Part shown: positions 4,012-10,468 of the stretch, in pieces
Position numbering within the stretch: the stretch's first letter is position 1
Layout of the letters: every line of letters begins with the position of its first letter
Source of the DNA: Desulfobacula sp.
GTDB lineage: Bacteria > Desulfobacterota > Desulfobacteria > Desulfobacterales > Desulfobacteraceae
Direction of reading: 5' to 3'
DNA length: 11,521 bases
Assembly (NCBI GenBank): GCA_029940245.1
Contig: JAOZRF010000047.1
Span: 1 to 11,521 of the forward strand
Notes under the pieces: generated by a model
The model's input: only the letters and a program-made list of their open reading frames with translations
Databases searched by the model: none
What the model was told of the DNA's origin: nothing
Made by a program: the position numbers and the translations under genes

Positions 4012-4773
4012 ATGAACCAGGAAAATTTAAAAAACATTTTGTCCCAGGTGGCCAAAGGGTCATTATCTGTTGAAAATGCTAAAGCTCAATTGATGCATAT
4101 CTCTTTTGAAAATATTGATTTTGCAAAAATAGACCATCATAGGTCTTTAAGAAAAGGATTTCCTGAAGTAATTTTCGGACAGGGAAAAACAAGTGAACAA
4201 ATCATTAGTATCATGAAAAAAATGATCATCCATGAAAATATCATTCTTGTTACCCGTCTTAAACAGAAAAAAGCACAAAGAATAATGTCCGTATTTCAAG
4301 ACGCGGATTATTTTAAAGATGCAAAATTGTTATGGCTTAAAAAAAATGAGCCAGAAATCACAGGCATTGGGAAAATCCTTGTGATTTCTGCCGGAACATC
4401 TGATATCCCCGTGGCAAAAGAGGCTTTTTTAACTGCCCAGGCCATGGGGAATGACATTGAATCCATCTTTGATGTCGGGGTAGCTGGTATTCACAGGCTT
4501 TTTGCCCACCAGGAACAGATTGTAAATGCTACGGTCATCATCGTTGTTGCCGGGATGGAAGGTGCTTTGCCCAGTGTAGTTGCAGGAATGGTCAAAGCCC
4601 CTGTCATCGCTGTTCCTACGAGCATTGGATATGGTACAAGCTTTGGCGGCATGACAGCCCTTTTGGGAATGCTCAATTCCTGTAGTTCAAACATTGCTGT
4701 TGTAAATATAGATAATGGATTTGGGGCAGGCTTTATGGCATCTTCCATTAATCATGTATCAAAAGCGGGATAG
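4012..4773 (+). CDS. larB: LarB, nickel-pincer cofactor biosynthesis (P2CMN synthase)
   Basis: LarB carboxylates and hydrolyses nicotinic acid adenine dinucleotide to pyridinium-3,5-biscarboxylic acid mononucleotide. This is the first step toward the nickel pincer nucleotide cofactor of lactate racemase (LarA) and its relatives. The 253-residue protein shows the LarB signature DHHRSLRKGFPEVIFGQGKT (about 41-60). It also has the PurE-like AIRC domain with VISAGTSDIPVA, GVAGIHR, VVAGMEGALPSVVAG and PTSIGYGTSFGG. C224 in LNSCSSNIAVVNIDNGFGAG aligns with the catalytic cysteine (C221) of the Lactiplantibacillus enzyme. The start is fixed by the family N-terminus and by an in-frame stop at 3997-3999, but no Shine-Dalgarno precedes it. 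larC, larE and larA are not adjacent. Confidence 0.95.
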   Translation: MNQENLKNILSQVAKGSLSVENAKAQLMHISFENIDFAKIDHHRSLRKGFPEVIFGQGKTSEQIISIMKKMIIHENIILVTRLKQKKAQRIMSVFQDADYFKDAKLLWLKKNEPEITGIGKILVISAGTSDIPVAKEAFLTAQAMGNDIESIFDVGVAGIHRLFAHQEQIVNATVIIVVAGMEGALPSVVAGMVKAPVIAVPTSIGYGTSFGGMTALLGMLNSCSSNIAVVNIDNGFGAGFMASSINHVSKAG

Positions 4774-4853
4774 TTAGAGACTTGCAACTATCCGATATGG
4801 ATTTAGGATTTAGGTTAAATCTTAAATCCTAAATCAGGTTTATGTATTTTTTT
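4768..4853 (+). terminator. Two successive palindromes after larB, possible weak terminator
   Basis: The first palindrome has GGATAGTT (4768-4775) pairing with AACTATCC (4786-4793); it overlaps the larB stop codon. The second pairs GATTTAGGATTTA (4800-4812) exactly with TAAATCCTAAATC (4823-4835) across a 10-nt loop. A run of seven T at 4847-4853 follows after 11 nt. The hairpins are AT-rich and the T run is not immediately adjacent, so termination would be weak. The second arm contains a tandem GATTTAG repeat and could instead be a protein-binding site. Confidence 0.4.
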
Positions 4854-4861
4854 CTTGACTC

Positions 4862-4890
4862 TTGACTTAAATAAAATTTATATATATTAA
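4862..4890 (+). promoter_or_regulatory. Candidate promoter of the ilvB-ilvH-cimA-leuA operon
   Basis: TTGACT at 4862-4867, 17 nt of AT-rich spacer and TATTAA at 4885-4890 would start transcription near 4897, about 20 nt before the leader peptide ATG. A second TTGACT at 4855-4860 with TATATA at 4879-4884 (18-nt spacer) could be an overlapping alternative. The position just upstream of the leader ORF supports the call. Confidence 0.5.
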
Positions 4891-4915
4891 AACTTATTTA
4901 ACTAAAGTAAAAATT

Positions 4916-4999
4916 ATGAATATAAATATTATTAATATACTACTAGTCCTTATTATCGTGGAGGTGATTATTATCACCTCCAGGCAAAGGGGCTCCTAG
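4916..4999 (+). CDS. Branched-chain amino acid leader peptide (27 aa) of the ilvB operon attenuator
   Basis: This is a 27-codon ORF from ATG 4916 to TAG 4997-4999. It begins MNINIINILLVLIIVEV and continues IIITSRQRGS. Nine Ile, three Leu and three Val make 15 of 27 residues, with runs of adjacent regulatory codons at 4937-4960 and 4964-4975. That composition, its place 86 nt before ilvB, and the terminator that follows its stop are the hallmarks of a leader peptide of the ilvL/ivbL kind. Slow translation at these codons under Ile, Val or Leu shortage would let transcription read into ilvB. The ribosome binding site is weak (AAAG about 8 nt upstream). It is not homologous by eye to the E. coli leader peptides, which is usual because only composition is conserved. 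Confidence 0.85.
   Translation: MNINIINILLVLIIVEVIIITSRQRGS
4959..4982 (+). promoter_or_regulatory. Leader hairpin 1 (pause hairpin) inside the leader coding region
   Basis: A perfect 10-bp stem pairs 4959-4968 with 4973-4982 around a TATT loop. It lies over the Val-Glu-Val-Ile-Ile-Ile codons of the leader peptide. By analogy with known attenuators it would make RNA polymerase pause so that a ribosome can catch up, and it would be opened by the translating ribosome. The 5' arm GGAGGTGAT is a full Shine-Dalgarno sequence, and the 3' arm ATCACCTCC is identical to the anti-Shine-Dalgarno end of 16S rRNA. Confidence 0.7.
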
Positions 5000-5042
5000 T
5001 GGCATAAACTTTAAATCAACTTTAAAAGCCGTTATCAGCCCC
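4989..5042 (+). promoter_or_regulatory. Antiterminator of the ilvB attenuator
   Basis: GGGGCT (4989-4994) pairs with AGCCCC (5037-5042). After a 2x2 internal loop, TAGTGGC (4997-5003) pairs with GCCGTTA (5028-5034), including two G-U pairs. The 3' side is the ascending arm of the terminator, so the two structures exclude each other. The 5' side contains the leader stop codon. A ribosome at that stop would cover it and allow termination. A ribosome stalled at the last Ile codons (4967-4975) would leave it free. The pairing was worked out by eye. Confidence 0.6.
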
Positions 5043-5071
5043 CAGGGGGCAGATAACGGCTTTTTTATTTT
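5024..5071 (+). terminator. Attenuator terminator upstream of ilvB
   Basis: A 13-bp stem pairs 5024-5036 with 5052-5064. After one A-A mismatch it continues as GCCC/GGGC (5038-5041 with 5047-5050) and closes in a short GC-rich loop. The tract TTTTTTATTTT at 5061-5071 follows at once. This is a very strong intrinsic terminator, yet it sits 13 nt before the ilvB start and just before its GGAG ribosome binding site. It must therefore be conditional for the operon to be expressed from the upstream promoter. Confidence 0.92.
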
Positions 5072-5084
5072 GGAGACAAGCAAT

Positions 5085-6776
5085 ATGAAACTGAACGGTG
5101 CCCAAATTCTTATTAAAATGATTAAGGCAGAAGGTGTTAACACAATTTTCGGATATCCAGGCGGTGCTGTCATTGATATTTATGATGCCCTTGCAAAACA
5201 GGAGGGCCTCCGCCATATCCTTGTCCGCCACGAACAGGCTGCTGTCCATGCAGCTGATGGCTTTGCCCGGGCCAACAAATCCGTTGGTGTTGCCCTGGTG
5301 ACTTCGGGCCCTGGTGCCACCAATACAGTTACGGGAATCGCTTCTGCACATTGTGACTCCATCCCCATTGTTGTATTTACAGGCCAGGTACCCACAGGAC
5401 TGATCGGGAACGATGCCTTTCAGGAAGTGGATATAGTGGGTATCACAAGGCCCTGCACCAAACACAACTATCTTGTAAAAAGTGTAGACAAACTGGCTGC
5501 AACCATTAAGGAAGCCTTTTATCTGGCAAGATCGGGAAGACCAGGCCCTGTTCTAGTTGATCTTCCAAAGGATATTATGCAAACCCAGGTTGATTTTGAA
5601 GAACCGGGCAAAATCAGTTTAAAATCCTACAAACCCAATTACAAGCCAAACAAAAAACAACTCAACAAAGTTGTGGATATGATCCGGAAGGCTAAAAAAC
5701 CAGTCATTTTTGCCGGAGGCGGTGTCATTATCTCCCAGGCTTCCGAACAGATCACCCGTCTTGCAAAAATAGCAGACATTCCCGTGACTGCATCTTTGAT
5801 GGGTCTGGGCGCATTTCCAGGATCAGACCCGCTGTGGTTGGGGATGCTGGGCATGCACGGCACTTATAGGGCCAATATGAGCATTGGCCATTGTGACCTC
5901 ATGATTGCCGCAGGTGTTCGATTTGATGACAGGGTTACAGGAAATATTGAAAAATTTGCATCCAATGCCAAAATTGTTCAAATTGATATTGATCCTACCT
6001 CTATTCACAAAAATATTGAAGTCCAATGCCCTATTGTGGGGGATTGTAAAACTACTCTTAAAGGTATTGTTCAATTAATGGAAGGCCAAAAAATAGAAGA
6101 TCTTAAAAAAGGCCGGCCCCAATGGCTGGATCAGATCCAGGAATGGAAGCGTACCACTCCCTTGAAATATGACCAGGGAAGTGACGTGATCAAACCCCAA
6201 TTTGTCATTGAAAAACTCTATGAACTGACAAAGGGCGATGCCATTATTACAACAGAGGTGGGGCAAAATCAGATGTGGGCTGCCCAGTATTATCACTTTA
6301 ATAAACCCAATCACTTTATTACATCTGCAGGCCTTGGGACCATGGGATTTGGACTGCCGGCTGCTATCGGTGCCAAGGTTGCCTGCCCGGATAAACCGGT
6401 TGTTGATGTTGCCGGAGATGGCTCCATCCAGATGAATATCCAGGAATTAATGACTGCCGTTGAATCAAAAATAGATGTTAAGATCGTCATTTTAAACAAT
6501 AAAAACCTTGGCATGGTAAGACAGTGGCAGGAGCTGTTTTATGAAAAAGTTTACTCGTTTACCAGTATGGAAAATGCCCCTGATTTTGTAAAACTGGCCG
6601 AGGCTTATGGTGCAAAAGGCTTAAGATGCACCCGGCCTGATCAAGTGGAATCTGTTTTATCCCAGGGTCTTAACCATAAAGGGACAATCATCATGGATTT
6701 TATTGTGGACAAAGAAGAATCTGTTTACCCCATGGTTCCTGCAGGTGGTGCAATTACTGAAATGCTTCTGGTTTAA
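5085..6776 (+). CDS. ilvB: Acetolactate synthase large (catalytic) subunit
   Basis: This is the ThDP-dependent enzyme that joins two pyruvates into 2-acetolactate (Val/Leu) or pyruvate and 2-oxobutyrate into 2-aceto-2-hydroxybutyrate (Ile). The 563 residues show the three expected domains. The N-terminal PYR domain has FGYPGGAVIDIYDAL (22-36), the catalytic glutamate E50 in RHEQAA, and SGPGATN. The middle domain has GRPGPVLVDLPKD and VRFDDRVTG. The C-terminal PP domain carries the ThDP/Mg motif GDGS (444-447) through LNNKN (470-474), then LGMVRQWQ. The ATG at 5085 is preceded by GGAG with 9-nt spacing. A TTG at 5070 in the same frame lies in the terminator T tract and is not a credible start. 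First structural gene of the attenuated operon; the small subunit follows 26 nt downstream. Confidence 0.97.
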   Translation: MKLNGAQILIKMIKAEGVNTIFGYPGGAVIDIYDALAKQEGLRHILVRHEQAAVHAADGFARANKSVGVALVTSGPGATNTVTGIASAHCDSIPIVVFTGQVPTGLIGNDAFQEVDIVGITRPCTKHNYLVKSVDKLAATIKEAFYLARSGRPGPVLVDLPKDIMQTQVDFEEPGKISLKSYKPNYKPNKKQLNKVVDMIRKAKKPVIFAGGGVIISQASEQITRLAKIADIPVTASLMGLGAFPGSDPLWLGMLGMHGTYRANMSIGHCDLMIAAGVRFDDRVTGNIEKFASNAKIVQIDIDPTSIHKNIEVQCPIVGDCKTTLKGIVQLMEGQKIEDLKKGRPQWLDQIQEWKRTTPLKYDQGSDVIKPQFVIEKLYELTKGDAIITTEVGQNQMWAAQYYHFNKPNHFITSAGLGTMGFGLPAAIGAKVACPDKPVVDVAGDGSIQMNIQELMTAVESKIDVKIVILNNKNLGMVRQWQELFYEKVYSFTSMENAPDFVKLAEAYGAKGLRCTRPDQVESVLSQGLNHKGTIIMDFIVDKEESVYPMVPAGGAITEMLLV

Positions 6777-6802: not shown

Positions 6803-7297
6803 ATGAAAACAAACAGCTACTTACTTTCTATCCTTGTAGATGATGAACCAGGTGTTCTCTCAAGGATTGCAGGTCTTTTTTCAGGCCGGGGGTTTAATAT
6901 TGACAGTTTGAGCGTGGCAAACACGGCCGAGCCTTGCGTATCAAGAATCACCATGGTGACCAAGTGTGAGCCCAATATCATTGACCAGATAAAAAAACAG
7001 CTTCATAAGCTGATCAATGTCATTACGGTGAATGATCTGACAGATAAAAAATATGTTCAAAGACAACTGGCATTAATAAAGGTCAATGCGCAACCTGAAA
7101 AAAAGGCAGACATATTAAGAATTGTTGATATTTTCAGATGCAAGATTGTCGATGTGGGTCTTTTCCACTACACCATCGAAGTATCCGGGAACAAGGAAAA
7201 ACACGATGCCATCATCTCTTTATTAAAACCTATGGGAATCATTGAAATTGCCTCCACAGGTTCCATTGCCCTGGCAAGAGAAAACGGTAAAAAATAA
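6803..7297 (+). CDS. ilvH: Acetolactate synthase small (regulatory) subunit
   Basis: The regulatory subunit binds valine and activates the large subunit. The 164 residues are the usual IlvH length. An N-terminal ACT domain (about 4-78) has LLSILVDDEPGVLSRIAGLF, then SGRGFNIDSLSV. The C-terminal AHAS small-subunit domain contains YVQRQLALIKV, FRCKIVDVG and the ending GSIALAREN. The ATG at 6803 has AAAGGA 8 nt upstream; the in-frame TTG at 6785 would precede that site and is rejected. The E. coli paralogues are named ilvN, ilvH and ilvM; length and two-domain form fit IlvH best. Valine feedback is expected from the family, not shown here. Confidence 0.96.
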   Translation: MKTNSYLLSILVDDEPGVLSRIAGLFSGRGFNIDSLSVANTAEPCVSRITMVTKCEPNIIDQIKKQLHKLINVITVNDLTDKKYVQRQLALIKVNAQPEKKADILRIVDIFRCKIVDVGLFHYTIEVSGNKEKHDAIISLLKPMGIIEIASTGSIALARENGKK

Positions 7298-7317: not shown

Positions 7318-8922
7318 ATGGAAAAAATACTTTTATACGACACCACGCTAAGGGATGGCATGCAGGGAGAAAACATATTTTTCTCCCCTGAAGATAAGGT
7401 AAAAATAGCAAAACGCTTAGATGACTTAGGCATCCACTATATTGAAGGCGGTTGGCCCGGATCAAATCCCGGGGCCCGGCATTTTTTCGAACTGGCAAAA
7501 AATATGGAATTCAAAAATGCCAGAATAGCCGCTTTTGGCTCCACCCGGCGCCAGGGAAAAACCTGTGAAGAAGATGGCAACCTGACAGCATTAATAAACA
7601 GTTGCGCCCCTGTGATCACCATATTTGGAAAATCCTGGGATCTGCATGTTGAATCCATCATGGAAAACACAAAGACTGAAAATCTTGCCATGATCAAAGA
7701 AAGCATTGCTTATCTTTTGAGCCATGACCGGGAGGTTTTCTATGATGCAGAACATTTTTTTGACGGATACAAAGCCAATCCGGGTTATGCCTTGAATACC
7801 CTTGAAGCTGCTGTTGAGGGAGGGACAAAATGTCTGGTGCTCTGCGATACCAATGGCGGGTCCCTGCCCTGTGATATTGAAAACATCACTCAAAAAGCAA
7901 TTGAACACTTCAAAGAGACACCCTGTCTTATCTTTGGCATACACACCCATAATGACTGCGCCATGGCCGTTGCCAATTCAGTCACGGGGGTTCATGCAGG
8001 CGCAACCATGGTTCAAGGAACCATGAACGGGTATGGTGAGCGGTGCGGTAATGCTGATCTGACAGCCATTATCCCTATCCTGTCGCTTAAAATGAATCGG
8101 GATTGCATCAGCCTGAAAAATCTTGAAAAGTTATTAAATCTTTCCCGGTTTATTTCTGAAACTGCCAATGTGCCTCCTGTCAATTCAAGACCCTTTGTCG
8201 GCAAGAGCGCATTTGCCCATAAAGGCGGGGTTCATGTCAGTGCCATCATGAAAAACCCCAGGGCCTATGAACATATTTCTCCTGAACTGGTTGGAAATAA
8301 AAGGCGGGTGATTGTTTCAGAACAGTCAGGCAAAAGTAATATTGAATATAAGGCAAAAGAACTGGGACTTGATCTGGGTGAAAGCGGTGTCAACGGATAT
8401 CAGATCGTATCCAGCATCAAGGAACTTGAAAATTATGGATTTGAATTTGATGCTGCTGAAGGCTCACTAAAGCTGATCATGGAAAAATTGACGGATCAGT
8501 TTGTCCCCCATTTTGAACTTGAATCCTTCAGGGTAGTGGTTGAAAAAGACAAGGAACGTCCCTGTTATTCCCATGCCATGATTAAAATAAGGGTGGGCAA
8601 TACAACGGAAATCACTTCAGCAGAAGGCGAAGGCCCTGTCAGTGCCCTGGATAATGCCTTAAGAAAGGCACTTACCACCATTTACCCGCAAATTGACGAC
8701 ATGCACCTTGTGGACTTTAAAGTCCGTGTCATTGACGGCATGGCTGGTACTGATGCAAAGGTGCGCGTTCTTATTGAATCAAGGGATGAAAATAATATTT
8801 TTTCAACCATCGGTGTTTCCGAAGACATTATAGAAGCAAGCTGGCAGGCGCTGGCCGACAGTTTCCAATATAAACTCTCACTAGACAATAAAAACCCAAT
8901 AGAAAATAACAAGGTAAAATAA
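7318..8922 (+). CDS. cimA: (R)-citramalate synthase (Geobacter-type CimA)
   Basis: CimA condenses pyruvate with acetyl-CoA to (R)-citramalate, the threonine-independent entry to 2-oxobutyrate and isoleucine. The 534-residue protein is a DRE-TIM metallolyase. YDTTLRDGMQGENIFFSPED opens the barrel (D8, R12). HTHND gives metal ligands H209 and H211, and NGYGERCGNADL and SAFAHKGGVHVSAI follow. A C-terminal LeuA-type regulatory domain starts near residue 390 (for example AEGEGPVSALDNALRKAL). The start DTTLRDGMQGE rather than DGEQSPG, together with the length, separates it from LeuA and homocitrate synthase and matches the long citramalate synthases of Geobacter type. CAGGA 6 nt before the ATG supports the start. 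It begins 20 nt after ilvH, and leuA starts 1 nt after its stop. The downstream steps would use LeuCD and LeuB, which are not in the window. Confidence 0.93.
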   Translation: MEKILLYDTTLRDGMQGENIFFSPEDKVKIAKRLDDLGIHYIEGGWPGSNPGARHFFELAKNMEFKNARIAAFGSTRRQGKTCEEDGNLTALINSCAPVITIFGKSWDLHVESIMENTKTENLAMIKESIAYLLSHDREVFYDAEHFFDGYKANPGYALNTLEAAVEGGTKCLVLCDTNGGSLPCDIENITQKAIEHFKETPCLIFGIHTHNDCAMAVANSVTGVHAGATMVQGTMNGYGERCGNADLTAIIPILSLKMNRDCISLKNLEKLLNLSRFISETANVPPVNSRPFVGKSAFAHKGGVHVSAIMKNPRAYEHISPELVGNKRRVIVSEQSGKSNIEYKAKELGLDLGESGVNGYQIVSSIKELENYGFEFDAAEGSLKLIMEKLTDQFVPHFELESFRVVVEKDKERPCYSHAMIKIRVGNTTEITSAEGEGPVSALDNALRKALTTIYPQIDDMHLVDFKVRVIDGMAGTDAKVRVLIESRDENNIFSTIGVSEDIIEASWQALADSFQYKLSLDNKNPIENNKVK

Positions 8923-8923
8923 A

Positions 8924-10468
8924 ATGACAACAGACAACCAAATTATTATTTTTGACACCACATTAAGAGATGGGGAACAATCCCCGGGGGCAAGCATGAA
9001 CAAGGCTGAGAAACTCAGGATTGCCACCCAGCTTGAAAAACTGGGTGTCAATGTGATTGAAGCCGGATTCCCCGCAGCATCTGAAGGAGATTTTCAAGCA
9101 GTCAAGGACATCGCCCAAACCCTTAAGGTTTCACAGGTTGCAGCACTTTGCAGGACAAATGAAGACGATATCAACCGGGGATGGGAAGCCATTAAAAATG
9201 CAGCACACCCAAGAATCCACACCTTTATTGCCACATCTGAACTGCACATGAAATATAAACTTGCCATGGAGCCTTCCCAGGTCCTGGAGCAGGCAGTCAA
9301 ATCTGTCAAGCTTGCCGCATCATACACAGATAATATAGAATTTTCAGCAGAAGATGGTTCAAGATCTGACCCTGCATTTTTATGTAAGGTATTTGAATCC
9401 GTTATTGATGCCGGTGCCACCACTATAAATCTTCCGGACACAGTGGGATACGCTATCCCGGAAGAATTTGCTGAGCTTGTAAAATATGTCATGGAAAATA
9501 CGGCTAATATAAATAAGGCTGTATTGAGTGTTCATTGCCATAATGATCTTGGACTTGCCACATCCAATACCCTTGCTGCCATAAAAGCCGGAGCCAGACA
9601 GGTTGAGGTCACCATTAATGGTATTGGAGAAAGAGCCGGAAACACGTCTCTTGAAGAAGTGGTCATGTCTCTGCACACACGACCCAATTACTTTGCCCGG
9701 ACCACATCCGTTGACACCAGAAGAATTTATCCCACAAGCCGTCTGGTCAGCATGGTCACAGGAATTCTTATCCAGCCGAACCGGGCCATTGTAGGTGCCA
9801 ATGCCTTTGCCCATGAAGCAGGTATCCACCAGGACGGCGTACTGAAAAATCCCATGACCTATGAAATCATGAAACCTGAAACCATAGGTCTTAACAAAAA
9901 CAACCTGGTCCTGGGAAAACATTCAGGACGTCACGCCTTAAATTCCCACGTTCAGGGAATGGGATACAATCTTTCAAAGGAAGAACTGGACACTGTTTTT
10001 GAAAAATTCAAACACCTGGCAGACAAGAAAAAAAGCATCCAGGATGAGGATATAGAAGCACTGATTAACGAAGGGGTATTAAGAAGTTCGGAAGTTTTCA
10101 AACTTGAATATATCCATGTATTATCCGGGAACACGGTCTTTCCCACGGCCAGTGTCAAGCTGAACATCAATGGCCGCCCGGCCCAGGGGGCAACAGAAGG
10201 AAACGGCCCCATTGATGCGGTTTACAATATTATATCCAAACTGACCGATACCAAATCCAAACTCTTAAGATTTACCATTTCAGCGTTAACCGAAGGCACG
10301 GATGCCCAGGGCGAAGTAACCGTCAGGCTACAGGAAGACGGAATCATAGCCCTTGGTAAAGGAGCTGATCCGGATATCATTACTGCCAGCGCCCTGGCCT
10401 ATATCAATGGCTTAAACAGACTGGAATACTTAAAGGAACATCCCGTTGTAAAACCTGAAAATCTCTAA
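8924..10468 (+). CDS. leuA: 2-isopropylmalate synthase
   Basis: LeuA condenses 2-oxoisovalerate with acetyl-CoA, the committed step of leucine synthesis. The 514-residue protein has FDTTLRDGEQSPGASM (D11, R15), NLPDTVGYAIPEEF and HCHNDLGLATSNTLAA (metal ligands H204, H206). NGIGERAGNTSLEEV and AFAHEAGIHQDGVLKN follow. SGRHAL opens the linker, and an allosteric leucine-binding domain occupies about 380-514 (GNGPIDAVYNII). Length and motifs fit the bacterial LeuA1 type (E. coli 523 residues). The ATG lies 1 nt after the cimA stop, with AAGGT in the cimA tail as its ribosome binding site, so translation is probably coupled. It is the last recognised gene of the attenuated operon. Leucine feedback is expected from the domain. 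Confidence 0.96.
   Translation: MTTDNQIIIFDTTLRDGEQSPGASMNKAEKLRIATQLEKLGVNVIEAGFPAASEGDFQAVKDIAQTLKVSQVAALCRTNEDDINRGWEAIKNAAHPRIHTFIATSELHMKYKLAMEPSQVLEQAVKSVKLAASYTDNIEFSAEDGSRSDPAFLCKVFESVIDAGATTINLPDTVGYAIPEEFAELVKYVMENTANINKAVLSVHCHNDLGLATSNTLAAIKAGARQVEVTINGIGERAGNTSLEEVVMSLHTRPNYFARTTSVDTRRIYPTSRLVSMVTGILIQPNRAIVGANAFAHEAGIHQDGVLKNPMTYEIMKPETIGLNKNNLVLGKHSGRHALNSHVQGMGYNLSKEELDTVFEKFKHLADKKKSIQDEDIEALINEGVLRSSEVFKLEYIHVLSGNTVFPTASVKLNINGRPAQGATEGNGPIDAVYNIISKLTDTKSKLLRFTISALTEGTDAQGEVTVRLQEDGIIALGKGADPDIITASALAYINGLNRLEYLKEHPVVKPENL

Follow-up and report, generated by a model that had tools for sequence, protein, structure and literature searches.

A probable branched-chain amino acid attenuator ahead of ilvB-ilvH-cimA-leuA in Desulfobacula, with relatives across Desulfobacterota

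What controls the branched-chain operon of this Desulfobacula genome, and is the DNA just ahead of it a leader-peptide attenuator? The window, i.e., the whole stretch analyzed (11,521 nt, the entire contig), carries larB, a 311-bp gap and then, in the same direction on the plus strand, ilvB (acetolactate synthase large subunit, 5085-6776), ilvH (acetolactate synthase small subunit, 6803-7297), cimA (citramalate synthase, 7318-8922) and leuA (2-isopropylmalate synthase, 8924-10468). The four gene names had been proposed by a sequence-only reading, and each was borne out by a match above its TIGRFAM cut-off: TIGR00118 for ilvB (842.9 bits, cut-off 538.35), TIGR00119 for ilvH (192.6 bits, cut-off 56.9), TIGR00977 for cimA (717.7 bits, cut-off 450) and TIGR00973 for leuA (717.1 bits, cut-off 598.7). 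The same reading had guessed a Desulfobacterota origin, in agreement with the nearest named relative, Candidatus Desulfobacula maris (L037), whose IlvB is 92% identical. An AT-rich 15-pair hairpin with a weak T tail lies after larB at 4800-4835 and is a possible end of the larB transcript.

Within the gap, a leader ORF of 27 codons was re-read on the plus strand at 4916-4999 (ATG 4916-4918, TAG 4997-4999), encoding the peptide MNINIINILLVLIIVEVIIITSRQRGS. Its 9 Ile, 3 Leu and 3 Val codons amount to 15 of 27, the same counts as originally noted, and its stop codon stands 85 nt ahead of ilvB. The ORF is followed by an intrinsic terminator (5024-5071, plus strand), which folding places just before the ilvB ribosome binding site, as had been claimed for a stem of at least 13 bp. 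The outer stem of 13 bp (5024-5036/5052-5064) is separated by an A-A mismatch from an inner stem of 5 bp (5038-5042/5046-5050), and the tail TTTTTTATTTT (5061-5071) directly precedes the Shine-Dalgarno GGAG of ilvB (5072-5075; ilvB ATG at 5085). A folding energy of -62.9 kcal/mol was obtained for the 180-nt leader, whereas shuffled sequences gave -34.7 +/- 4.2 (z -6.7), and none of the 200 shuffles folded as well. A generic promoter and terminator scan of 4700-5200 did not report this terminator, although folding reveals it. To estimate how often such an arrangement arises by chance, a loose rule (at least 8 I/L/V among 14 codons, with a terminator of -12 kcal/mol or lower following within 150 nt) was applied to the opposite strand of 109 loci, yielding 30 matches in 1.1 Mb; the window element, with 12 of 14 codons I/L/V and a terminator of -28.8 kcal/mol, lies far past this rule.

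The terminator shares one of its strands with a second helix. Strand 2, GGGGCTCCTAGTGGC (4989-5003, plus strand), holds the leader stop TAG, and strand 3, GCCGTTATCAGCCCC (5028-5042, plus strand), can pair either with strand 2 as an antiterminator or with strand 4 as the terminator, making the two helices mutually exclusive. A window segment stopping inside strand 3 folds into the antiterminator, which has a 2x2 internal loop. In an alignment of 43 leaders, the terminator core CCGTTATC...GATAACGG is nearly invariant and strand 2 has the consensus GGGGNTGATAATGGC. A strong hairpin and T-tract are present in all aligned members (43 and 44 in two alignments), which were collected partly by that very feature.

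Covariation was assessed in 40 aligned sequences. For the antiterminator 2:3, 90.8% of cells are paired, and 23 cells show changes in both partners (shuffles, 7.9), with a covariation score of 0.229 vs 0.030-0.080 when slid; the number of pairs with a change in both partners did not clearly exceed the shuffles (5 vs 3.3; 62/500). The terminator 3:4 has 94.8% of cells paired and 37 cells with changes in both partners (shuffles, 11.1); its score is 0.200 vs 0.019-0.055 when slid, while its further pair types did not exceed shuffles (14 vs 12.5; 98/500). C-to-G changes at one position of strand 3 have counterparts in strand 2 (31 G-C, 7 C-G, 1 A-U, 1 unpaired) and, in part, in strand 4 (23 C-G, 7 G-C, 9 unpaired). 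For the 2:3 helix, pairing with the leader's own partner was stronger than the average over partners exchanged between loci in 83 of 113 leaders; within the genus group, strand 3 has a stronger pairing with strand 2 taken from other groups (-22.2 kcal/mol) than with its own strand 2 (-20.2 kcal/mol). The sequence-only reading had named conservation of leader composition and terminator in relatives, with covarying pairs, as a check; composition and terminator are indeed kept, and both terminator and antiterminator pairs covary.

An I/L/V-rich ORF ending near strand 2 is present in 100 of 101 leaders examined, and the stop codon falls in or near strand 2 across leaders; the ORF chosen per locus was the most I/L/V-rich candidate, and the search itself demanded an end close before strand 3. 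A protector strand 1 was located in the minimum-free-energy fold at 4938-4951 (plus strand), within Leu-Leu-Val-Leu codons, as the partner of strand 2. When 1:2 pairing was compared with synonymous-codon shuffles using a first strand-1 boundary, the mean z over 100 leaders was -1.2 (40 below -1.64, 9 above +1), and z was positive in the window (+1.22) and in most members of the genus. With a later boundary that takes in all codons before an inner hairpin, the only one at which the window's protector is seen, z was -2.45 in the window, and the mean for 19 unique leaders from the genus and from close relatives was -1.5. None of the z-scores are independent, because the sequences are related. For this later-boundary analysis 14 further genus loci were tried, 13 of which yielded a leader (L175 did not). 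For 1:2, the leader's own partner outdid the average of exchanged partners in 105 of 113 leaders.

The inner hairpin itself (4959-4982, plus strand) consists of 10 bp, TGGAGGTGAT-TATT-ATCACCTCCA, and lies inside the leader ORF, flanked by strands 1 and 2. Against synonymous shuffles it reached z -4.6 in the window and a mean z of -1.36 over 113 leaders (47 below -1.64, 6 above +1). Its arms GGAGGTGAT and ATCACCTCC resemble a full Shine-Dalgarno sequence and the 16S rRNA tail (anti-Shine-Dalgarno), respectively. No ATG, GTG or TTG start closely follows the hairpin in the window.

A candidate promoter on the plus strand (4862-4890) combines TTGACT at 4862-4867, a 17-nt spacer and a weak -10 TATTAA at 4885-4890; a second TTGACT lies at 4855-4860. 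The generic scan of 4700-5200 reported no plus-strand promoter. Across the family, 111 of 113 leaders have TTGAC[AT] no more than 130 nt ahead of their start (8.5 expected from shuffles), and 34 of 113 have a TA...T -10 at 16-18 nt spacing (1.9 expected), a pattern that the window's TATTAA does not fit. No good Shine-Dalgarno was found ahead of the leader start in the window (4896-4915), and a suitable Shine-Dalgarno-like 4-mer precedes the start in just 23 of 113 leaders.

Leader ORF, terminator, conservation, covariation and operon context all support the interpretation originally offered for this locus. Judging from these features of the DNA, the element is, with a probability of about 0.92, a ribosome-mediated transcription attenuator with protector 1:2, antiterminator 2:3 and terminator 3:4. 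RNA polymerase would start just upstream of 4916, and a ribosome would translate the leader peptide. When Ile-, Leu- or Val-tRNA is scarce, the ribosome would be expected to stall at the control codons that overlap strand 1 (4938-4951), leaving strand 2 free to pair with strand 3, so that the terminator would not form and ilvB-ilvH-cimA-leuA would be transcribed. When all three amino acids are ample, the ribosome would reach the stop codon inside strand 2 and cover this strand, 3:4 pairing would follow, and transcription would end at about 5066-5071. If the leader is not translated, 1:2 and 3:4 could both form, and transcription would end too. Stalling by the ribosome, termination of the transcript and a response to tRNA charging are predicted here along the lines outlined in the relevant part of PMC1183508.

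Upstream sequences from 80 titled loci with an IlvB relative and from a search of 58 related genomes showed the same element, and a covariance model, R1, was built from 40 aligned sequences. R1 detected a single copy in the window's genome. It matched 252 of 291 genomes from the order and 45 of 395 genomes drawn from the phylum, 15 of these 45 (our own included) being listed under the same order; some additional R1 matches arise where the palindromic terminator is read in antisense. Within the genus, 18 of 26 genomes carry the leader. The eight others comprise five lacking an IlvB match and three whose contigs start inside ilvD or 57 bases before the ilvD match. A second model, R2, was built solely from the last 72 nt of the leader, which kept most control codons out of the model; it matched 70 of the 85 genomes that represent the class of G348, and for the order of G345 the figure was 101 of 119. 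The leader is a member of a homologous RNA family found across the order and in other lineages of the phylum.

The genes downstream were then compared. In 57 of 58 inspected R1 loci, ilvD, ilvB, cimA or leuA lies directly downstream, the remaining locus being at a contig edge. Among 28 further matches, 25 directly precede a branched-chain gene, one an acyl-CoA dehydrogenase gene and two shikimate-kinase-like genes with Phe/Tyr leaders. An enlarged set, which drew on 60 regions chosen from the listed R2 matches in the class of G348, has a branched-chain gene directly downstream in 85 of 95 loci, 35 of the 95 having been among the earlier matches. The same holds for 39 of 40 leaders in a separate order, represented by 20 genomes with two listed R2 copies. 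In 38 of the titled loci carrying the leader, the first gene is ilvD (23), ilvB (8), cimA (6) or leuA (1), and two gene orders recur: leader-ilvD-ilvB-ilvH-(ilvC)-cimA-leuA and leader-cimA-leuA-leuC-leuD-ilvB-ilvH-ilvC. Gene names were checked with NCBIfam on L076, L086 and L037, where leuD scored above the subfamily cut-off and below the leuD equivalog cut-off. L076 comes from the cultured Desulfosarcina alkanivorans PL12, whose leader lies at about NZ_AP021874.1:1574938-1575102 (L076 5054-5218).

The operon gene set first proposed is right for the four genes of the window, but 23 of 38 loci begin with ilvD, which is missing here. In the window's subclade the leader abuts ilvB, as also seen in the close relatives L008, L011 and L014, and ilvD is missing at the operon, whereas most relatives have ilvD first. 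The only ilvD match of the window's genome lies on another contig (G000:C495:10784-12544, L115); it is of a divergent type, ~50% identical to operon-type ilvD. Among relatives whose leader adjoins ilvB, G025, G022 and G024 carry a 58-60% identical ilvD elsewhere, and no ilvD match was found in the genome of G011.

Three further kinds of leader were also observed. A similar Ile/Leu leader with terminator precedes not a biosynthesis gene but a 380-aa acyl-CoA-dehydrogenase-like gene at L292, L298, L302, L318, L321, L323 and L231 (genomes G712, G713, G704, G703, G706, G705 and G617, respectively); genes for ETF subunits follow in the two annotated loci, L323 and L292, and the other five loci were recognised by eye. 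At L232 (G453) and L233 (G425), a YYFFYY or FYYFYY leader and a terminator precede a shikimate-kinase-like ORF, which at L232 matches shikimate kinase models below their cut-offs; judged from their codons and terminators, these leaders are likely Phe/Tyr attenuators. Two Smithella genomes and a Syntrophaceae bacterium (L083, L092, L093) have a different Val/Leu-rich leader, MFLKDLT...VVVLTGSAALYL, before ilvB, with a terminator whose sequence is unlike that of the window family.

Three other accounts of the element were weighed against this evidence. A ligand- or tRNA-binding element, i.e., a T-box or metabolite riboswitch with an incidental ORF, would suit the strongly conserved structure and sequence ahead of biosynthesis genes, and a binding site could be suspected in the near-invariant CCGTTATC; conservation of strand 3 can, however, be explained because this strand must pair with both 2 and 4. 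Rfam 15 gave no family match at gathering threshold in the window and 10 further loci, and the low-threshold matches included no T-box and a single riboswitch, a minus-strand fluoride element at 11.2 of 34 bits. An I/L/V-rich ORF in all but one of the 101 leaders is also hard to explain in this way, and we regard such an element as very improbable.

Still less credible is a constitutive terminator that closes larB transcription, with the ORF encoding a small hydrophobic membrane protein. Hydrophobicity of the peptides and the upstream position of larB, in the same direction, speak for it, but the terminator, the antiterminator and the protector act like conserved alternative structures, the leader precedes ilvD, ilvB, cimA or leuA, whichever comes first, the peptides vary widely from I/L/V mixes to Ile-only runs, and nearly every leader has its own upstream TTGAC box. 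We would give equally little credence to translation coupling or reinitiation on ilvB, or to Rho, in place of intrinsic termination: the resemblance of the GGAGGTGAT/ATCACCTCC hairpin to a Shine-Dalgarno/anti-Shine-Dalgarno pair speaks for it, while against it the leader stop lies 85 nt upstream of ilvB and all aligned members, collected partly by that feature, keep the strong hairpin and T-tract.

Under the attenuator reading, the control codons might be expected to follow the products of each operon, and the window's leader had been said to sense exactly the end products of the enzymes encoded. To analyze this, a first set of 95 loci was reduced to 82 by dropping four loci whose ORF was judged to be wrongly picked (L309, L311, L230, L317) and nine loci without a known downstream gene; rows from truncated contigs that showed no ilvB (or leuA) were omitted, leaving 66 for the Val test and 75 for the Leu test. 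The median number of Val codons per leader was 4 with ilvB (n=38) vs 1 without (n=28), and that of Leu codons 9 with leuA (n=51) vs 2 without (n=24); each association gave a Mann-Whitney p of ~2e-10, a statistic that ignores relatedness. In 9 of 10 two-leader genomes of this set, the leader of the ilvB operon was the richer in Val. Ile-only leaders, e.g., MTRNTGIIIGRGIIIRPVT, stand before cimA alone in several families. In the separate order, the ilvB leader had the higher Val fraction in 13 of 19 genomes; 4 genomes showed the reverse and 2 a tie. Among the three amino acids, Ile was the most frequent in 15 of 19 ilvB-operon leaders and 20 of 20 others (4 with leuA). Because of this weak Val result and the predominance of Ile, the codon-product rule is not general: the claim fits the window, but its strict form, leader codons equal to exactly the operon products, was rejected for the family as a whole.

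Enterobacterial ilvGMEDA and ilvBN attenuators combine an I/L/V-rich leader peptide with alternative 1:2, 2:3 and 3:4 pairs and a multi-amino-acid signal. The leader described here is like them in all three respects and differs in its phylum and in an operon that includes cimA and leuA. It forms one homologous RNA family with a CCGTTATC core; the enterobacterial leaders were compared through Rfam scans alone. The best sub-threshold Rfam match, Rev39_5p_UTR (28.4 of 88 bits), and a plus-strand Phe_leader match (18.1 of 55 bits) were set aside as sub-threshold. The abstract of a 2004 survey of proteobacterial attenuation reportedly names gamma- and alpha-proteobacteria, not delta.

Motifs upstream of ilvB have been described in other bacteria. 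According to the sections of PMC10272879 on these motifs, the Corynebacterium ilvB-II motif, or ilvBNC uORF, is a conserved actinobacterial RNA motif of one genus; like the present leader it pairs a BCAA-rich uORF with a terminator/antiterminator upstream of ilvB, but it precedes ilvBNC, unlike the window operon. The same sections give 41 representatives in various phyla for ilvB-OMG and 7 in Leptospira for the Leptospira ilvB motif, both sharing BCAA-rich uORFs before ilvB and suggested to be attenuators; no Rfam family of either name matched the scanned sequences, and they were compared by description. Actinobacterial ilvB leader peptides, as treated in part of PMC1262725, are short ORFs with Ile/Val/Leu codon runs overlapping terminators, thus like the present leader in codon runs and terminators and different in taxa and operons. 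That part also reports proteobacterial attenuator patterns with several partners conserved over large distances, which fits the conserved core seen here. In a full-text literature search, with most subscription papers outside its scope, no such Desulfobacterota leader was described among the matches listed; the main text of PMC545781, on delta-proteobacterial regulation, contains none of 'ilv', 'branched' or 'leader peptide', and PMC2965389 neither 'desulf' nor 'ilv'. The mechanism is already known, while, as far as checked, the family appears undescribed, as do its operon set and its distribution within the phylum.

Together, these results allow a tentative evolutionary scenario, to which we give somewhat less than even odds. 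One attenuator RNA may have been inherited across much of Desulfobacterota, its core kept while operons were cut and rejoined, with copies following the first branched-chain gene and the codon mix retuned at splits (Val being lost when ilvB is elsewhere); some copies may have been recruited to an acyl-CoA dehydrogenase-etfB-etfA operon. The probable attenuator would extend leader-peptide control of branched-chain synthesis to sulfate reducers and their kin, as one traceable RNA family. Split operons, lost ilvD and Ile-only vs Ile-Leu-Val leaders would serve as natural experiments on attenuator retuning. A covariance model is ready for use, and the leader predicts when cimA-type isoleucine synthesis would be switched on in these organisms.
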